A stretch of 64,000 nucleotides of DNA from Acidobacteriota bacterium (lineage in GTDB: Bacteria; Acidobacteriota; JAAYUB01): NCBI GenBank assembly GCA_012517875.1, contig JAAYUB010000134.1, positions 1 through 64,000 on the forward strand, in the 5' to 3' direction. The translations under genes were made by a program, and so were the position numbers. Shown here one piece after another: positions 46,308 to 55,725 of this stretch (positions are counted from its first letter, which is position 1; every line of letters begins with the position of its first letter). Under the pieces are notes generated by a model. That model worked only from the letters and a program-made list of their open reading frames with translations. It made no database searches and was not told the origin of the DNA.

Positions 46308-47363
46308 ATGAGTGACGAATGGTCCGATTCGGCGGCTCCTGTTTTTGACTCCGAGTATGCGTCGATTCTGGCGGTTGTGGACCAGCGCATTCACCTGGAA
46401 TGGCGTGCCCACCCGGAACAGCATCTGGATGCAGCCGGCGGGCATCTGATCGAAGCGGCCCGTCATCTGGGCCGATTGCTCCGGGTCATCTATCGCCACC
46501 GACTGCTGGACGCTCTCCGCGACGAGTTCATGTGGTATGTCCATCTGTTCGCCGCTCACGGTTGGGGGCACGATGCGTTATCCTTGGTTCTTGACAGCTG
46601 GATCGTCGGCATTCAAGGGCTGATTCCGACGCCGGAGTGCAACCAACTGGCCGCACCGCTGCAAGCCCTCCGGGACGACTTGTCCCACCTGTTCGCGACG
46701 GCCGAGGCCGGGGACGGGACCGGCCGGCCGGCCTTCGACCCGCGGCTGATGGACGATCTGTTGCGGGGCGACGTCCAACACGCGCAGCAGCGCCTCCTGT
46801 CGAGCACAGCATCCGTCGCGACGCCGGACCGCTGGATCGTGGACATGCTGCTCCCGGCCATGGCCGAGGTTGGCAGTCGGTGGGAGCGACACCAGATTGA
46901 AATTTACGAGGAACACCTCGCCTCCCAGGCGATCAAAAGCCTCCTGATCCGGCTGCCGGCGCTGCCGGCCGCTGCCGCGCCACTGATCGGACGGACGGCG
47001 CTGGTCACGTGCGCCCCCGGCGACGAACACGACCTGATCCCGATGGCCATGAGCGCGTATCTCGAGACGAAAGGCTGGCAGGTGAAAAACCTCGGCGGCA
47101 GCCTGCCGGTCGGGCAGATTGTCGCCGCCGCGACAGCCCTGGAACCGGACGTGCTGTTCATCACCCTGACGATGCTGTTTCTGATCGATGAGCTGCTCGC
47201 GGTTCTGGATGGATTGCGCCGGGACTACCCGGACGGCAAGGTGATCGTGGGAGGCCGCGGAACTGTGGCCGCACAGGCCTTGCTGGAAAGTCGCGGGGCC
47301 TTCGTGGCCCGGGATTTTGATCACGGACACCGCCTGGCTCTGCAGGTGAGCCATCATGCGTAG
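46308..47363 (+). CDS. CarH-type cobalamin-binding sensor with unknown N-terminal domain
   Basis: 351 residues. The C-terminal half is a B12-binding module: a four-helix cap (about 150-220) with W192-x9-E202-H203, the W-x9-EH signature of the CarH/LitR photoreceptor family, and a Rossmann-type cobalamin domain (about 228-345) with PGDEH, where H241 fits the lower axial cobalt ligand. The next conserved Gly of DxHxxG is replaced (H-D-L-I-P). Residues 1-140 are helical and lack the MerR-type DNA-binding domain of CarH. Its stop overlaps the permease start by 8 bases. Light or adenosylcobalamin sensing is inferred from motif identity; ligand and output are unproven. Confidence 0.85.
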   Translation: MSDEWSDSAAPVFDSEYASILAVVDQRIHLEWRAHPEQHLDAAGGHLIEAARHLGRLLRVIYRHRLLDALRDEFMWYVHLFAAHGWGHDALSLVLDSWIVGIQGLIPTPECNQLAAPLQALRDDLSHLFATAEAGDGTGRPAFDPRLMDDLLRGDVQHAQQRLLSSTASVATPDRWIVDMLLPAMAEVGSRWERHQIEIYEEHLASQAIKSLLIRLPALPAAAAPLIGRTALVTCAPGDEHDLIPMAMSAYLETKGWQVKNLGGSLPVGQIVAAATALEPDVLFITLTMLFLIDELLAVLDGLRRDYPDGKVIVGGRGTVAAQALLESRGAFVARDFDHGHRLALQVSHHA

Positions 47364-48477
47364 TCTGACCGCTCTGCGGATGGTCATCCACGATCGGTCG
47401 TCCACGGCGGGTTCGCTTCTCGGCGTGGTGGCCATCGTGTTTTTGGTCGGGCAGCAGCTGTCCATTCTGTTCGGGCTGTTGAATTACATGTCCGTTCTGG
47501 TGGATCACAGCGGCGCGGACGCATGGATCATGAGCCGGAACGCGCGCAATGCCGATGCCGGGTTTTTAATCTCGGATCGCTACATCGATCGGATCATCGG
47601 ATTGCCGGAAGTCGCCTGGGCCGAGCCGGTCCTGATCGGGAACGGGCTGTTCCGAACCACGGATGGTTCGTATGAGTCGGTTCGGGTGGTGGGCAGCCGC
47701 CGGCCGCGATTTGCAGGCGGGCCGTGGCGATTCGCCCAGTCGAATGAGGATGCGTTGCTGGACCTGGAATCCGTCACCGTGGACCGCCTGGATCTGGACA
47801 AGCTGGGCAATCCGGGTCTCGAGGAGATAACGGAAATCGGCGAACGCCGCGTCCGCGTGCGGGCGGTCACGGAGGGAGCCCGGGGCTTTCAGGGGACACT
47901 GGTCTTTGCCTCCATCGAGAAAGTCAGGGAAATCGCCCGCACGCCGGCGGGGATGGCCTCCGTCATTCTGGTGCGCTTCGTCGACGGTTCCAACGCTGCG
48001 GCCACACTGGCCAAGTTGCGGACGATCATGTCGTTCGCGAGCGTGTACAGCACCGCTGAACTCGCGCACCGGACCCGGCTGTATTATTTTACCAACACCG
48101 GTATCGGCGGCAGCTTCGGCTTCTCCACGGTGATCGCGGTCCTGATCGGCGTGGTGATCATTTCCCTGACCATGTACACCAGTGTGCTGGGCCGAACGCA
48201 GGATTTCGCGGTGATGCGCGCCATCGGCGGCCGCAAATGGGACATCGCCGTGGTGGTGTTCGTCGAGGCGCTCATCATCACCGGTGTCGGTCTGTTCGCC
48301 GGTTTCCTGATGCTGGCCGCTTTGCTCAACACCACCGGAAATTCCTCCATCCCCAGCTATCTGCCCGGTGTTGTGCCGCCCGTCCTGGCGGCGGGGACCT
48401 TGATCGTCAGCCTGCTGGGTTCCGCCATCGCTCTGCGCACGGCGCTCAAGGCCGATCCGGCGGCGGTATTCCACTGA
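47356..48477 (+). CDS. FtsX/MacB-like ABC transporter permease (DevC-type)
   Basis: 373 residues. One helix near the N-terminus (about 15-45) is followed by a periplasmic MacB-like domain (50-240) and three C-terminal helices (about 255-285, 300-325 and 340-365), the topology of FtsX/MacB family permeases. The VMRAIGGRKWDI-like segment before the second C-terminal helix is the coupling-helix area. The gene overlaps the B12-sensor gene by 8 bases and is followed 17 bases later by its ATPase, so a membrane complex is likely. Such systems usually export lipids, peptides or transmit signals. Confidence 0.88.
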   Translation: MRSLTALRMVIHDRSSTAGSLLGVVAIVFLVGQQLSILFGLLNYMSVLVDHSGADAWIMSRNARNADAGFLISDRYIDRIIGLPEVAWAEPVLIGNGLFRTTDGSYESVRVVGSRRPRFAGGPWRFAQSNEDALLDLESVTVDRLDLDKLGNPGLEEITEIGERRVRVRAVTEGARGFQGTLVFASIEKVREIARTPAGMASVILVRFVDGSNAAATLAKLRTIMSFASVYSTAELAHRTRLYYFTNTGIGGSFGFSTVIAVLIGVVIISLTMYTSVLGRTQDFAVMRAIGGRKWDIAVVVFVEALIITGVGLFAGFLMLAALLNTTGNSSIPSYLPGVVPPVLAAGTLIVSLLGSAIALRTALKADPAAVFH

Positions 48478-48493
48478 TGAACGGGGCAGTCTC

Positions 48494-49195
48494 ATGGTGA
48501 CGTTGCGATTGGAGGGGATCGCGAAGGATTTTTCGGACGGGCGTCAGATCCGCCGGGTGCTGTTCCCGACGGATTTGACGCTGTTGTCGGGGAAACTGAT
48601 GGTTGTCTCCGGCCCTTCGGGCAGCGGCAAAACCACGCTGCTTTCCATCATGGGGCTTGTGCTCCGACCGTCCGAAGGCCGGCTGTTTCTCAACGATCAA
48701 AACATCACGAGCCTGTCCGACAACCAGTCGGCGGATATCCGTTTGCGGAACTATGGTTTTGTGTTTCAGCAGCCGATGCTGATCGAAGGTCTCAGCGTGA
48801 TGGACAATATCTTGTTGGCCATGGCGGTGCAGGGTGGACGTCCGCCGGCAACCGCGCGGGCGAAGGCCCGCGGTCTCCTGAAGAACCTCGGTCTCGATGA
48901 CGTGGGCCATTTTCAACCGCGCTTGCTGTCCGGTGGAATGAAACAGCGGGCCTCCATCGCTCGGGCCCTGGTCAAGGACCCGGCTGTTCTGCTGTGCGAT
49001 GAACCGACATCGGCACTCGATGCCGAGAGCGGACAAGGGGTGATGGGCGTTCTCAAGCGCATCGCCATCGAGGAGCAGCGGATCGTCGCCGTGGTCTCGC
49101 ATGACGCCCGGGTGTTCCCCTACGCCGACCGCCTCATCAAAATCGAGAATGGCCGTGTGGTCTCAGATACGATGGAACATTATGTCAGACAATAG
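48494..49195 (+). CDS. ABC transporter ATPase (DevA/LolD type)
   Basis: 233 residues. Walker A GPSGSGKTT (about 36-44), signature LSGGMKQR (about 138-145), Walker B AVLLCDEPTSALD (about 158-170) and the switch His SHD (about 197) are all intact, as in LolD/MacB/DevA ATPases that energise FtsX-type permeases. Lies between permease and membrane fusion protein genes. GGGG upstream of the ATG is only a weak ribosome site. Confidence 0.93.
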   Translation: MVTLRLEGIAKDFSDGRQIRRVLFPTDLTLLSGKLMVVSGPSGSGKTTLLSIMGLVLRPSEGRLFLNDQNITSLSDNQSADIRLRNYGFVFQQPMLIEGLSVMDNILLAMAVQGGRPPATARAKARGLLKNLGLDDVGHFQPRLLSGGMKQRASIARALVKDPAVLLCDEPTSALDAESGQGVMGVLKRIAIEEQRIVAVVSHDARVFPYADRLIKIENGRVVSDTMEHYVRQ

Positions 49196-49206
49196 GATAT
49201 GACGCC

Positions 49207-50280
49207 ATGAAATTGCCGAAATGGATCATTTGGTTGATCTTCGTAATTGTGGTGATCGCCGGATCCTACTACACGGTTGTATCCCTCCGCCGGGCGGCGG
49301 CGCCGCCGGAGCCGGCCAAAACACCTTCGCTGGACAACGCCCCGGTCCGGCTGTATGGCCGCGTGGAACCCCTGCACCGGGAGGTGTTCCTCGGGCCGCT
49401 GCAACCCCGCCGCGTGACGAAGATCCTGGTCAAAGAGGGAATGGAAGTCCATCCGGGGCAGGTGCTGGTGGAGTTGGATTCGGATGTGGAGCAACAGGCG
49501 GCCCAGCTTGCCCGCTTGCGGGTCCTGGAATTGGAATCCCAACTGGACAGGCTCCTTGACGAACTCAGGCGCGAGGTTCCGCTGACCGAGATCCGCCCCG
49601 GTGAAATGCAGAACGCCCTGCAGGTTTTGGTACTGCGGGTTCGGGAGCTGGAATCCCGGCTGGATCTCGTTCTGGATGAGCTGAAACGCAAGGAGCCGTT
49701 GTCCCAAATCGGAGCGGTGTCGGAGCAGGATTTCAGCCAGAAGATTCTGGAAGCGAAAAGCATCCGCAGCCAGATCGCCACCGCGACAGCGGAAGCGGAA
49801 TTGGATTTCCAGCAGAAACAGTTGCAGGCCGAAAGCATCCGCCGGCAGATCGCCACTGCCAAAGCCGAAGTGGAATTGAAACGCCGTGAGCTGGACAAGC
49901 TGACTCTGGTTTCACCCATCGAAGGGATGGTGTACAAACTGGACGTTCGCATCGGCGAGCTGCTGACCGCCCAGGATTACGCCCGCATCGTGCTGGGCGA
50001 AAGGCGGAAACAGATCCGGATGTATGTCGAGAGCTACTGGTTTGGCAAGATCCGCCAGGGGGATCGGTTTCAGATTCGAGATGGCGAAACTCTGGAACGG
50101 ATCGGCGAGGGAACCGTCACCGAGGTTTCCCAGTATGTGGGCGTCCGGGATTTTCGGACGGAGGATTCCATGGAACGCCTGGATACAAAATACGCGCAGG
50201 CGATTCTGAGCGTGGACAACAGCACGGACATCCCTCTCGGCAAACTGGTGCTGTGCGATCGCACACTTTCGGGACAATGA
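49207..50280 (+). CDS. HlyD-type membrane fusion protein with duplicated coiled coil
   Basis: 357 residues. A membrane anchor (about 5-28) is followed by a lipoyl half-motif (RLYGRVEPLHREVFL), a long coiled-coil region (about 95-225) and a beta-barrel domain with the second lipoyl half (LVSPIEGMVYKLDVRIGE). The coiled coil contains two pairs of near-repeats: ELESxLDxxLDELxRxxPL twice, and KxIxAxSIRxQIATA-type twice. This points to internal duplication extending the hairpin. It completes a DevB-DevC-DevA-like tripartite exporter preceded by a B12-sensor gene. Confidence 0.88.
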   Translation: MKLPKWIIWLIFVIVVIAGSYYTVVSLRRAAAPPEPAKTPSLDNAPVRLYGRVEPLHREVFLGPLQPRRVTKILVKEGMEVHPGQVLVELDSDVEQQAAQLARLRVLELESQLDRLLDELRREVPLTEIRPGEMQNALQVLVLRVRELESRLDLVLDELKRKEPLSQIGAVSEQDFSQKILEAKSIRSQIATATAEAELDFQQKQLQAESIRRQIATAKAEVELKRRELDKLTLVSPIEGMVYKLDVRIGELLTAQDYARIVLGERRKQIRMYVESYWFGKIRQGDRFQIRDGETLERIGEGTVTEVSQYVGVRDFRTEDSMERLDTKYAQAILSVDNSTDIPLGKLVLCDRTLSGQ

Positions 50281-50430: not shown

Positions 50431-50464
50431 GCGGGGCCTGGTATCCAGGCCCCGCATTGTTTTG
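50431..50464 (+). terminator. Terminator of the B12-sensor/exporter operon
   Basis: An 11-bp perfect stem GCGGGGCCTGG/CCAGGCCCCGC with a 3-base loop is followed by ATTGTTTT. Lies 150 bases past the HlyD stop; the spacer 50281-50430 shows no gene. Confidence 0.75.
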
Positions 50465-50516: not shown

Positions 50517-52754
<2,238 letters not shown>

Positions 52755-52818
52755 TCACCGGTTTGGTCAGCACGCGCCGCCGGGACCGGCGGTTCCGTTA
52801 CGCGCGTCCGGCGGTGCT

Positions 52819-53490
52819 TCACGGGCACTTCTTGAATACCATGAACCAGTCGAGAACCTTCATGTCCTTGTCCGGCTTGTCCACGCGCTGCTTGGCCACG
52901 CCGCAGGAACCGGGCGGTGGAACGATCACATCCTCGCCCGGCTGCCAGTTTGCCGGAGTGGCCACCTTGTGCTGGTCCGACAGTTGCATGGCCATCAGCA
53001 GCCGCTTGACTTCTTCCATGTTGCGGCCGTTGCTGAGCGGGTAGTACAGGATAGCCCGGACCACGGCGTTCGGATCGATGATGAAGACCGCCCGGACCGC
53101 TTGGGTGGTGCTGGCCGCCGGCTGCAGCATCCCGAAGGCCTTGGAGACTTCCATGGTCAAATCGCTGATCACCGGGAAGTTGACTTCGATGTCCTTCATG
53201 CCCTTATATTCGATTTTCTCCTTGATAGTGCGCAGCCAGGCGATGTGGCTGTACGTGCTGTCAATGGACAGCCCGATGAGTTTGCAGTTCAACTTCTCAA
53301 ACTCCGGCTGCATGTGTGCGAACGTCATGAACTCGGTGGTGCACACCGGCGTGAAATCCGCCGGGTGGGAAAAAAACACCACCCATTTCCCCGCGTAGTC
53401 GTCAGGGAAATTGATGGGACCCTGGGTCGTTTCCGCCTTGAAAGCGGGCGCCTTCTCGCCGATCAATGGCAGTCTGACAGTTTGTTCCAT
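52819..53490 (-). CDS. Peroxiredoxin of the 1-Cys/Prx6 type
   Basis: 223-residue thiol peroxidase. The active Cys is C50 in PADFTPVCTTEF, with the usual Pro and Thr neighbours, and the C-terminal half shows the Prx6-type extension (LLMAMQLSDQHKVATPANWQPG). There is one further Cys (in PGSCGVAK), so it may be a 2-Cys variant in practice. GGAGGATGAG precedes the ATG at 53490. It lies between perR and katG, making a peroxide-response cluster. Confidence 0.93.
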   Translation of the reverse strand: MEQTVRLPLIGEKAPAFKAETTQGPINFPDDYAGKWVVFFSHPADFTPVCTTEFMTFAHMQPEFEKLNCKLIGLSIDSTYSHIAWLRTIKEKIEYKGMKDIEVNFPVISDLTMEVSKAFGMLQPAASTTQAVRAVFIIDPNAVVRAILYYPLSNGRNMEEVKRLLMAMQLSDQHKVATPANWQPGEDVIVPPPGSCGVAKQRVDKPDKDMKVLDWFMVFKKCP

Positions 53491-53548
53491 CTCATCCTCC
53501 AAAAATTGTGATATATGGCGTATACAGATCAATAATTGGACGTGCGGC

Positions 53549-54058
53549 TCAATGCCGGCATCCAGTCTTGACCGGGGAATGTGGTCCCACTCGGCCGGCC
53601 GTCGATTGCCGGCAGTTGAGGCAGATTCCGAAGAAATCCAACCGATGGGTGACGATCTCAAAACCGGTTTCGCAGGCGACTTCGCGGGTGAGCGCCTCCA
53701 GGCTGTCCAGGTTCGGATCGAGAATGGCCCCGCACCGCGTGCAGATCAGGTGTGGATGCGGGTGCGGCTGGTGGCCATCGTAGCGATTCCCGCTGTCGGC
53801 AAAACCTAGTTCCAGCACCTCGCCGATCTCCTTCAGGACACCGATGGTCTTGTAGATCGTGGCCAGGCTGATGGTAGGAAAGCGCACCCGGACCTCGTCG
53901 TAGACCATCTCGACGTTGGGGTGCCACTCGCTGGCGGCCAGCGCCTCGATCACCGCCAGGCGCTGGGGGGTGATGCGGAACCCGCGGCTCCGCAACCTGG
54001 CCAGCATTTGTCCAACCCGTGACGTCGCTTCGGTAGCCGTTTTCGTATGTTTTAGCAC
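53549..54058 (-). CDS. perR: Fur-family peroxide regulator (PerR-like)
   Basis: 169 residues. The N-terminal winged helix contains RITPQRLAVIEAL, and the C-terminal metal-binding dimerisation domain has the structural zinc CxxC pairs (ICTRC and ICLNC) and HQPHPHPH, giving regulatory ligands. Assignment to PerR rather than Fur rests on the genomic neighbours (peroxiredoxin and katG). The longest frame begins with GTG at 54058, which would fall almost at the start of the transcript; the ATG at 54007 (about 152 residues) is an alternative and leaves a start similar to other family members. Confidence 0.8.
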   Translation of the reverse strand: MLKHTKTATEATSRVGQMLARLRSRGFRITPQRLAVIEALAASEWHPNVEMVYDEVRVRFPTISLATIYKTIGVLKEIGEVLELGFADSGNRYDGHQPHPHPHLICTRCGAILDPNLDSLEALTREVACETGFEIVTHRLDFFGICLNCRQSTAGRVGPHSPVKTGCRH

Positions 54059-54064
54059 GTAGAT

Positions 54065-54093
54065 ACATTATCGTAGTAGTATGATTTTGTCAA
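54065..54093 (-). promoter_or_regulatory. perR promoter overlapping an AT-rich operator-like region
   Basis: Minus-strand TTGACA and TAATGT with a 17-base spacer. The surrounding 54080-54125 is unusually AT-rich: TCAATAAATA occurs twice (54090-54099 and 54103-54112), and ATTAT/ATAAT inverted arms flank the second copy. It resembles the AT-rich sites of Fur/PerR-family regulators and lies between perR and the cytochrome operon. Confidence 0.55.
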
Positions 54094-54231
54094 TAAATAT
54101 TATCAATAAATAATAATTGCTGATAAGAACTAGCAACCGATCCGATGGCGGTGAAATCCGATGCCGTCCCGGGCGGTTTATGTTAATCTGCCCATCGAAA
54201 AAGAACATTGCCGGATCTCGATGAGGTGACC

Positions 54232-55725
54232 ATGAATTACCCCGTCTGGGAACCGTACATCGCCAACGGCGTGCTCATTGGCGTGATCGCCATCGTCCAC
54301 GTGTTCGTGTCCCACTTCGCCATCGGCGGCGGGCTGTACCTGGTGCTCGCCGAGATCTGGGCGCGGCGCCGGAACGACGCCGCCCACCTGGCGTACCTGG
54401 AACGGTACTCCCGGTTCTTCGTTCTGCTCACCCTGGTGTTCGGCGCCGTGACCGGCGTCGCCATCTGGGTGACCATCGGGCTGATCCACCCGGTGGGCAC
54501 CAAGTGGCTGATCAACCACTTCGTCTGGGGCTGGGCCACGGAGTGGGTGATGTTCTTCCTGGAGATCACCGCCGCCATGCTTTACCTGTACGGCTGGCGG
54601 CGGCTGTCGCCGAAACTGCACCTGGCCATCGGCTGGATCTACTTCGTCACCGCCTGGCTGTCGCTGGTGATCATCAACGGCATCCTCACCTTCATGCTGA
54701 CCCCCGGCGGCTGGCTGGCTTCGGGCAGCTTCTGGGAAGGATTCTTCAACCCCGGTTTTCTGCCGGGGATGGTTTTCCGCACCGGCATCTGCCTGGCCCT
54801 GGCCGGCCTCTACGCCTCGCTCTCGGCGGCCCGGGAGCAGAACGCGGAGCTCAAGACGCGGATTCTCCGCTTCAACGGCTCCCTGACGCTGGGGGCGCTG
54901 GCGGTGGGCGTGCCGTCGGGCTACTGGTATTTCCTCACGCTGCCGCCGGTCGCGGCCGAGCAACTGGTGTCGGCGCGGGTACCGGCGCTGGCGGTGCAGG
55001 TGATGCTCGCGGCCGCCGGAGTGCTGGCACCGGCGGTCCTGGTTCTGCTGCTGCTCATCCCCCGACGAACCGGCGCCGTCGCCGCCGGCGTGATGCTGGC
55101 ACTGGCGCTTGTTTCCATGGGCGGCTTCGAGTGGGCCCGCGAGGCCATCCGCAAGCCGTACGTCATTCACGAATTCCTCTACAGCAACAATCTGCTGGCG
55201 CGCGACGCGGCCGCGCTGCCGGCCGCCGACCCGCTGCCGGTGACCTTTTCCACCGGGGACCGGGGCCGCGACCTGTATCTCCACGGCTGCCGCTCCTGCC
55301 ACACCATCGACAGCTATCACCCGCTGCGGGAGTATGTGGCCGGTCTCGATGAAGCCTGGATCGCCGGCATCATCCCACGACTCCATCTCTACCGCGAGAA
55401 GATGCCGCCGTTCCCGGGCAACACGGCCGACGCCGAAGCCCTGGGGCGCTACCTGAAGTCCGTGGCCGGACCCGATCCGCTGGTTGACGGACGGCTGAGC
55501 GCCGCGGCGCAGGATGCGCTTGCATTCAGGCGGCGCTGCGGCGGCTGTCACACCCTCGCCGGCAATTTCCGTCCGCTGGCGGACGCCTTTACCGGCCTGA
55601 CGCCCGCGGACGCGGCCGACATCGTTGCCGGCATCGGCGACATGTCCGATTCCATGCCTCCCTTCACGGGAACCGACGAGGAAAAGGAACAGGTGGCCCG
55701 CCACCTGACCGGAGGTGCACAATGA
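54232..55725 (+). CDS. CydA-like membrane protein fused to two c-type haem sites
   Basis: 497 residues. Nine or so helices (about 12-310) resemble CydA of cytochrome bd: H23 and H28 in the first helix, a TEWVMFFLEITAAML segment (E104, E111) matching the CydA motif, and a REAIRKPYVIHEF segment resembling CydA's GRQPW region. The position of the b558-ligand histidine seems to be R183. The C-terminal 150 residues are soluble with two CxxCH motifs (353-357 and 435-439) for c-type haems. Start: ATG at 54232 with GAGGTG upstream. Overlaps the next gene by 4 bases. Whether it reduces oxygen or another acceptor is undecided. Confidence 0.8.
   Translation: MNYPVWEPYIANGVLIGVIAIVHVFVSHFAIGGGLYLVLAEIWARRRNDAAHLAYLERYSRFFVLLTLVFGAVTGVAIWVTIGLIHPVGTKWLINHFVWGWATEWVMFFLEITAAMLYLYGWRRLSPKLHLAIGWIYFVTAWLSLVIINGILTFMLTPGGWLASGSFWEGFFNPGFLPGMVFRTGICLALAGLYASLSAAREQNAELKTRILRFNGSLTLGALAVGVPSGYWYFLTLPPVAAEQLVSARVPALAVQVMLAAAGVLAPAVLVLLLLIPRRTGAVAAGVMLALALVSMGGFEWAREAIRKPYVIHEFLYSNNLLARDAAALPAADPLPVTFSTGDRGRDLYLHGCRSCHTIDSYHPLREYVAGLDEAWIAGIIPRLHLYREKMPPFPGNTADAEALGRYLKSVAGPDPLVDGRLSAAAQDALAFRRRCGGCHTLAGNFRPLADAFTGLTPADAADIVAGIGDMSDSMPPFTGTDEEKEQVARHLTGGAQ

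Follow-up and report, generated by a model that had tools for sequence, protein, structure and literature searches.

The window, a stretch of 64,000 nucleotides of contig JAAYUB010000134.1 from an Acidobacteriota bacterium, carries on its forward strand four closely spaced genes encoding a sensor of the adenosylcobalamin (AdoCbl) type, a permease, an ATPase, and a membrane fusion protein (MFP) (Table 1). The ATPase gene starts 16 bases past the permease stop and the MFP gene 11 bases past the ATPase stop. A terminator-like hairpin follows about 150 bases 3' of the MFP stop, just ahead of a convergent katG-like gene, so that it may serve both the operon and that gene. An earlier reading made from the sequence alone (the sequence-only reading) had described an 8-base overlap of the sensor and permease genes, the ATPase and MFP genes within 20 bases, and a terminator at the operon end. 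The overlap (permease ORF from 47356, sensor end at 47363) and the short gaps stand as described, and the terminator holds with the proviso that it is perhaps shared.

Table 1. Features of the sensor-exporter operon in the window
Feature	Position	Strand	Description	Basis
AdoCbl-type sensor ORF	46308..47363	+	351 aa	Pfam, AF2, Foldseek, signature table
Sensor domains		+	Residues ~9-135, predicted globin/phycobiliprotein-like; ~145-215, four-helix bundle; ~230-335, Rossmann B12-binding	PF02607 (bundle); PF02310 (Rossmann)
GxxW-x9-EH segment	46872..46916	+	Residues 189-203; equivalent of the CarH AdoCbl adenosyl-side cap and upper His	Sequence; signature (PMC11796333)
Lower cobalt ligand motif	47016..47108	+	P237-GDEH241 and G263-x3-P267	Sequence
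Sensor/permease stop/start overlap	47356..47363	+	8 bases, ATGCGTAG	Sequence
DevC/MacB-type (FtsX) permease	47356..48477	+	373 aa; TM1 ~15-45, TM2-4 ~248-364	PF02687; TIGR01185 devC below cut-off
ABC ATPase, DevA/MacB/LolD type	48494..49195	+	233 aa	PF00005; TIGR02982 below cut-off
MFP, DevB/HlyD type	49207..50280	+	357 aa; N-terminal hydrophobic segment and long alpha-hairpin	PF13437; TIGR02971 below cut-off
Terminator-like hairpin	50431..50455	+	11-pair, GC-rich; between the operon and the convergent katG-like gene	

The exporter resembles the DevBCA/MacAB-type tripartite systems in having an FtsX-type permease, a DevA/MacB-like ATPase, and a DevB/HlyD-like fusion protein. The permease is laid out as TM1, a periplasmic domain, and three C-terminal TMs (assigned by hydropathy only), with the ATPase and the adaptor as separate proteins. 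It differs from the known systems in the scores of its proteins, which all stay below the DevA, DevB, and DevC family cut-offs (187/296, 62/129, and 67/290 bits), in the gene order permease-ATPase-MFP, and in the dedicated B12-type protein. In the permease tree, the subfamily forms a single clade (100/100) that is distant from the other DevC permeases. By conservation and hydropathy, the TM1 region is specific to this subfamily and highly conserved, making it a possible candidate site for specific contact with the sensor. The operon contains no gene for an outer membrane factor, and an Rfam search of the window matched neither a cobalamin riboswitch nor any other element.

The long hairpin of the window MFP (49510-49710) contains an internal near-repeat, ELESQLDRLLDELRREVPL / ELESRLDLVLDELKRKEPL, which makes it longer than that of the homologue at locus L068. 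The operon is adjoined at 50517-55725 by katG-like, peroxiredoxin-like, Fur/PerR-like, and cytochrome-bd-like genes, whose translations were read by eye, and by this reading the neighbourhood is of an oxidative-stress type.

Cobalamin-binding domain of the sensor

Pfam matches PF02607 at residues 146-214 and PF02310 at residues 230-333 of the window sensor. The sequence reads G189-x2-W192-x9-E202-H203, P237-G-D-E-H241, and G263-x3-P267, and thereby holds all four motifs (GxxW, EH, GxxH, and GxxxP) that separate light-responsive from other cobalamin domains (PMC11796333). When the protein was shuffled 20,000 times, the full spaced signature never arose. By profile and model comparison, the cobalamin-binding domain (CBD) matches the CBD structures of CarH and of the photocobilins, with 8j2w/8j2x (photocobilin) as the best PDB matches of the sensor profile and 7te2 (AerR) as a distant one. 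An adenosyltransferase of the CobA or PduO type, which forms AdoCbl, is encoded in all 22 genomes checked.

The W192-x9-E202-H203 and PGDEH (H241) motifs, the CarH-type cobalamin domain, and the missing MerR domain, all noted in the sequence-only reading, are confirmed here; Pfam finds no MerR/HTH domain in the window sensor or in 34 homologues. The placement of the protein in the CarH/LitR family holds for the CBD and fails for the family. The sensor shares with CarH/LitR the CBD fold and the residues equivalent to CarH W131/E141/H142/H177, but it scores 59.1 bits against a cut-off of 400 for the CarH equivalog (NCBIfam), lacks the MerR domain, lies in an operon with an exporter, and has a predicted globin-like N-terminus, which brings it nearer to the photocobilins/photoglobins than to CarH.

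Predicted fold of the N-terminal domain

The six-helix N-terminal domain yields no sequence match in Pfam or the PDB. AF2 models, predicted with the 34 homologues, reach a pLDDT of 90.8 for the whole sensor and 91.0 for residues 1-142 alone. The nearest folds are smURFP, phycocyanin, allophycocyanin, and globins, with a TM score up to 0.67 at 2.9 A but a Foldseek E value of only 0.06. We predict a globin/phycobiliprotein-like fold for residues 1-140, a domain that the sequence-only reading had missed; it had proposed a structural search of this region.

Photoglobins and photocobilins are described as a bilin-binding globin fused to a CBD (PMC10979010, PMC10151467). The window sensor resembles SasPcob and AbDPcob in joining a CBD with the full light signature to a predicted globin/phycobiliprotein-like domain in one protein, with the domain order reversed. 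Further differences are that its genomic partner is an exporter and not a diguanylate cyclase and that the family lacks the bilin motifs. The resemblance opens the reading that biliverdin is bound by the N-terminal domain, as it is in SasPcob, and that the exporter is gated by a true photocobilin with two chromophores. The smURFP, allophycocyanin, and phycocyanin matches favour it, but the E value does not, the motifs CxRD/CxQD and RGMC, as quoted in those papers, occur in none of the 35 sensors, and no heme oxygenase turned up in any of 22 host genomes, making biliverdin doubtful. AbDPcob also has low biliverdin occupancy. We consider a bilin chromophore very improbable and, given the absence of both motifs and heme oxygenase, claim none.

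Conservation of the cassette

We scanned the permease alignment against 84,980 species, each represented by a single genome, and obtained 36 loci from about 15 phyla, where many loci are MAG contigs, some of them short, and binning errors may inflate the phylum count. Two firmer cases are Desulfobulbus alkaliphilus DSM 24258 (L051), an isolate, and UASB270 (L045), a 1.15-Mb scaffold. The hosts belong to Synergistota, Planctomycetota, Verrucomicrobiota/Lentisphaerota, Nitrospirota, Bacteroidota, Desulfobacterota, Ozemobacteraceae, KSB1, Acidobacteriota, WOR-3, Edwardsbacteria, Zixiibacteriota, and others. A B12 protein lies directly upstream of the permease in 35 of the 36 loci, although at L047 no more than a fragment of it remains at the contig end; L075 is the exception. 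The operon proposed in the sequence-only reading, which had suggested a survey for such co-occurrence, is borne out far beyond the window. The 8-base overlap is found in 29 of 36 loci and the sequence [AG]TGCGTAG at 31 of 36 permease starts, L075 included; the fixed overlap implies translational coupling, and chance neighbourhood is rejected on the strength of the 35 of 36 loci and the fixed overlap.

Sensor and permease are co-inherited, their distances correlating with r=0.87 (0/2000 permutations). In the permease sub-clade of the window the phyla are intermixed, indicating horizontal transfer, and the cassette has, judging from the tree, moved between phyla. Cargo of phages or plasmids is rejected as an explanation, with no relative in viral contigs and with plasmid matches only to general DevC-type permeases of about 30% identity. 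The flanking genes vary by locus, so that the conserved unit consists of just these four genes. In several Desulfobacterota/Deltaproteobacteria loci, a cyclophilin-type peptidyl-prolyl-isomerase-like gene with a signal-like N-terminus is located upstream of the cassette, just before the sensor gene in L061, L063, L064, and L067 and at 2056-2667 in L062.

At the Zixiibacteriota locus L075 (7900-8060) the exporter has no sensor gene and is preceded by a CorA gene; the exporter can therefore persist without the sensor. The permease start there is still ATGCGTAG, apparently a relic of a lost sensor/permease overlap.

A sensor without a DNA-binding domain could also target a transcription factor encoded at another site in the genome, and so control only the expression of the exporter operon. 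AerR gives the precedent, being a MerR-less B12 photoreceptor that works by protein contact through CrtJ (PMC5362033, PMC6199135), and the 7te2 structure of AerR is among the distant matches. AerR/PpaA differ from the window sensor in that AerR acts on a transcription factor, while the window sensor neighbours an exporter and has the extra N-terminal domain. Among the flanking-gene matches listed, no transcription factor is conserved beside the operon across loci, a cassette present in about 15 phyla would need a matching partner everywhere, and the fixed permease overlap would be unnecessary. We regard this explanation as unlikely.

A lineage without the cobalamin residues

W192, E202, H203, and H241 are intact throughout the window's clade (18 of 18 sensors), in most other sensors outside one lineage, and in the four sister proteins examined (see below). 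In 9 of the 35 sensors, those of a mostly deltaproteobacterial group (L061, L062, L063, L064, L065, L067, L070, L072, and L078), the cobalt His is replaced by D/E and the GxxxP proline by S/T; the two are lost together, G189 and H203 are usually gone too, and the operon is kept. The joint loss suggests that the cobalt His, the GxxxP proline, and the co-lost residues act together. Since the outgroup is intact, the loss is derived. Homologues without the W-x9-EH context, which the sequence-only reading had named as evidence against its proposal, do exist in these nine cases, where the cobalt His and usually the EH pair are lost. Linkage to the exporter stands in this lineage, and universal cobalamin sensing does not, so that AdoCbl control cannot be general to the family.

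The continued exporter linkage argues for a coupling to the pump. It suggests that the sensor protein continues to serve the exporter once cobalamin binding is lost, as a regulator or subunit and not as a B12 carrier. A carrier role would mean that cobalamin or another corrinoid is what the pump exports, and the joint encoding of a CBD protein and an exporter speaks for it. We also know of no established route by which B12 producers release it. The nine members without cobalamin ligands disfavour such an exporter, as does the absence of any B12 synthesis or uptake family among the 25 Pfam families listed for the flanking genes, and we give a cobalamin exporter very little credence.

Sister sensors with other partners

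We searched whole genomes of 247 Acidobacteriota, 297 Desulfobacterota, and 294 Planctomycetota with a profile of the N-terminal domain. The Acidobacteriota contain the window sensor and one weak match, the Desulfobacterota 11 strong and 5 weak matches, and the Planctomycetota one match. All 11 strong Desulfobacterota matches adjoin the permease, in a comparison that is not fully independent, as pump-linked sensors were the source of the profile and 10 of the 11 (all but G663) are loci already found by the permease. Homologues away from the exporter had also been put forward as counter-evidence to the coupling; in the genomes searched of these three phyla, no close relative, as judged by this domain, is so placed. 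Exactly one sensor is encoded in 13 of 14 cassette genomes tested and none in the L075 genome.

The weak matches form a sister group, with the same two-domain architecture and no exporter at the loci whose contigs could be read. The sister family (L114, L115, L116, and L094, with L080) has hosts in Desulfobacterota and Acidobacteriota. The partner gene was read in four of these loci (L117, at a contig edge, and L118 were left out): the sister sensor lies directly ahead of a histidine kinase in L114, L094, and L116 and of a GGDEF enzyme in L115. These pairs are probably split two-gene light-signalling systems. With other output genes following the sister sensors, the architecture can be understood as an input module whose partner is the next gene, and the partner of the globin-like and CBD sensor appears to be interchangeable.

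Light, redox, or B12 supply as the signal

A RudS-type (TudS-DUF1722) gene lies directly 3' of the MFP gene in L073 (3352-4311), L077 (10854-11813), and L075 (10751-11524), and a TudS-only gene in L074 (10292-10876). RudS is known from LitR-controlled light operons (PMC11417400), and this linkage points to light. The RudS/TudS gene is a fifth operon member in WOR-3/Zixiibacteriota, RudS itself being present in two loci of WOR-3 and the one of Zixiibacteriota. On the other side, many hosts appear to be anaerobes of sediments and digesters with little light, which counts against a light signal. A photolyase is encoded in 9 of 22 genomes, and its co-occurrence with intact signatures (7/13 against 2/8 with degenerate ones) is not significant (p=0.37).

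The same regulatory subunit might instead respond to AdoCbl supply, the cobalt redox state, or oxygen, tuning the exporter to the B12 or redox status of mostly anaerobic hosts. Several hosts bear anaerobic-lineage names, the window operon has the katG-like, peroxiredoxin-like, and Fur/PerR-like genes read beside it, and CarH itself integrates oxygen, without which its light state is not completed (PMC10442372). Against this explanation weigh the retention of the residues that mark light-responsive CBDs (PMC11796333), the RudS linkage, and the Rfam search of the window, which matched no riboswitch or other element. We consider it possible but not probable, and it remains a serious rival given the dark anaerobic hosts, the missing photolyase link, and the oxygen response of CarH.

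Proposed mechanism

We propose, with a probability of about one half, that the four genes form one unit in which a cytoplasmic AdoCbl sensor, probably of light, regulates a DevBCA/MacB-type exporter by direct contact. The sensor would be made in step with the permease, the ATPase, and the MFP. In the dark, AdoCbl would keep it in one oligomeric form or conformation. Cleavage of the Co-C bond by light, or the cofactor being lost, would alter that form, and the altered sensor would switch ATPase activity or complex assembly.

MacB-type transporters couple cytoplasmic ATP hydrolysis to periplasmic movements and take up their substrate in the periplasm (PMC5985334). For a sensor in the cytoplasm, the most plausible target is therefore the ATPase or complex assembly, in the way that MlaB acts on MlaF. 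The STAS protein MlaB is a precedent for a small cytoplasmic protein regulating or stabilising an ABC transporter (PMC7367683), with a fold unrelated to that of the window sensor and without a ligand or light signal. Action on a partner protein is also documented for a standalone photocobilin, which activates a diguanylate cyclase in trans (PMC10979010).

More tentatively, the cassettes may represent a widespread and horizontally moving class of light-gated export pumps, in which an AdoCbl photosensor is a subunit of an ABC exporter and switches the exporter by contact, and in one lineage of which the sensor lost its chromophore site and became a fixed subunit.

Significance

B12 photoreceptors without a MerR domain (AerR and the photocobilins) and DevBCA/MacB exporters are already known, so that the missing MerR domain, as part of the sequence-only reading, is not new. 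As to the coupling of sensor and exporter, which that reading held to be undescribed, in the full-text literature, whose coverage excludes most subscription papers, we found no description of a cobalamin photoreceptor and a DevBCA/MacB exporter in one system. We infer direct control of the exporter by the sensor. The B12 photoreceptors known so far have transcription or cyclic-di-GMP as their output, whereas here the same module is tied to a membrane exporter in about 15 phyla. The ligand-loss lineage is a natural experiment on the role of the sensor at the pump without its cofactor. If confirmed, the cassette would provide a genetically encoded pump controlled by light or B12, of use in optogenetics, and the globin-CBD sensor would be an exchangeable input module with its partner encoded by the next gene. 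The findings suggest that a membrane pump may be under the direct control of light or of B12 state.
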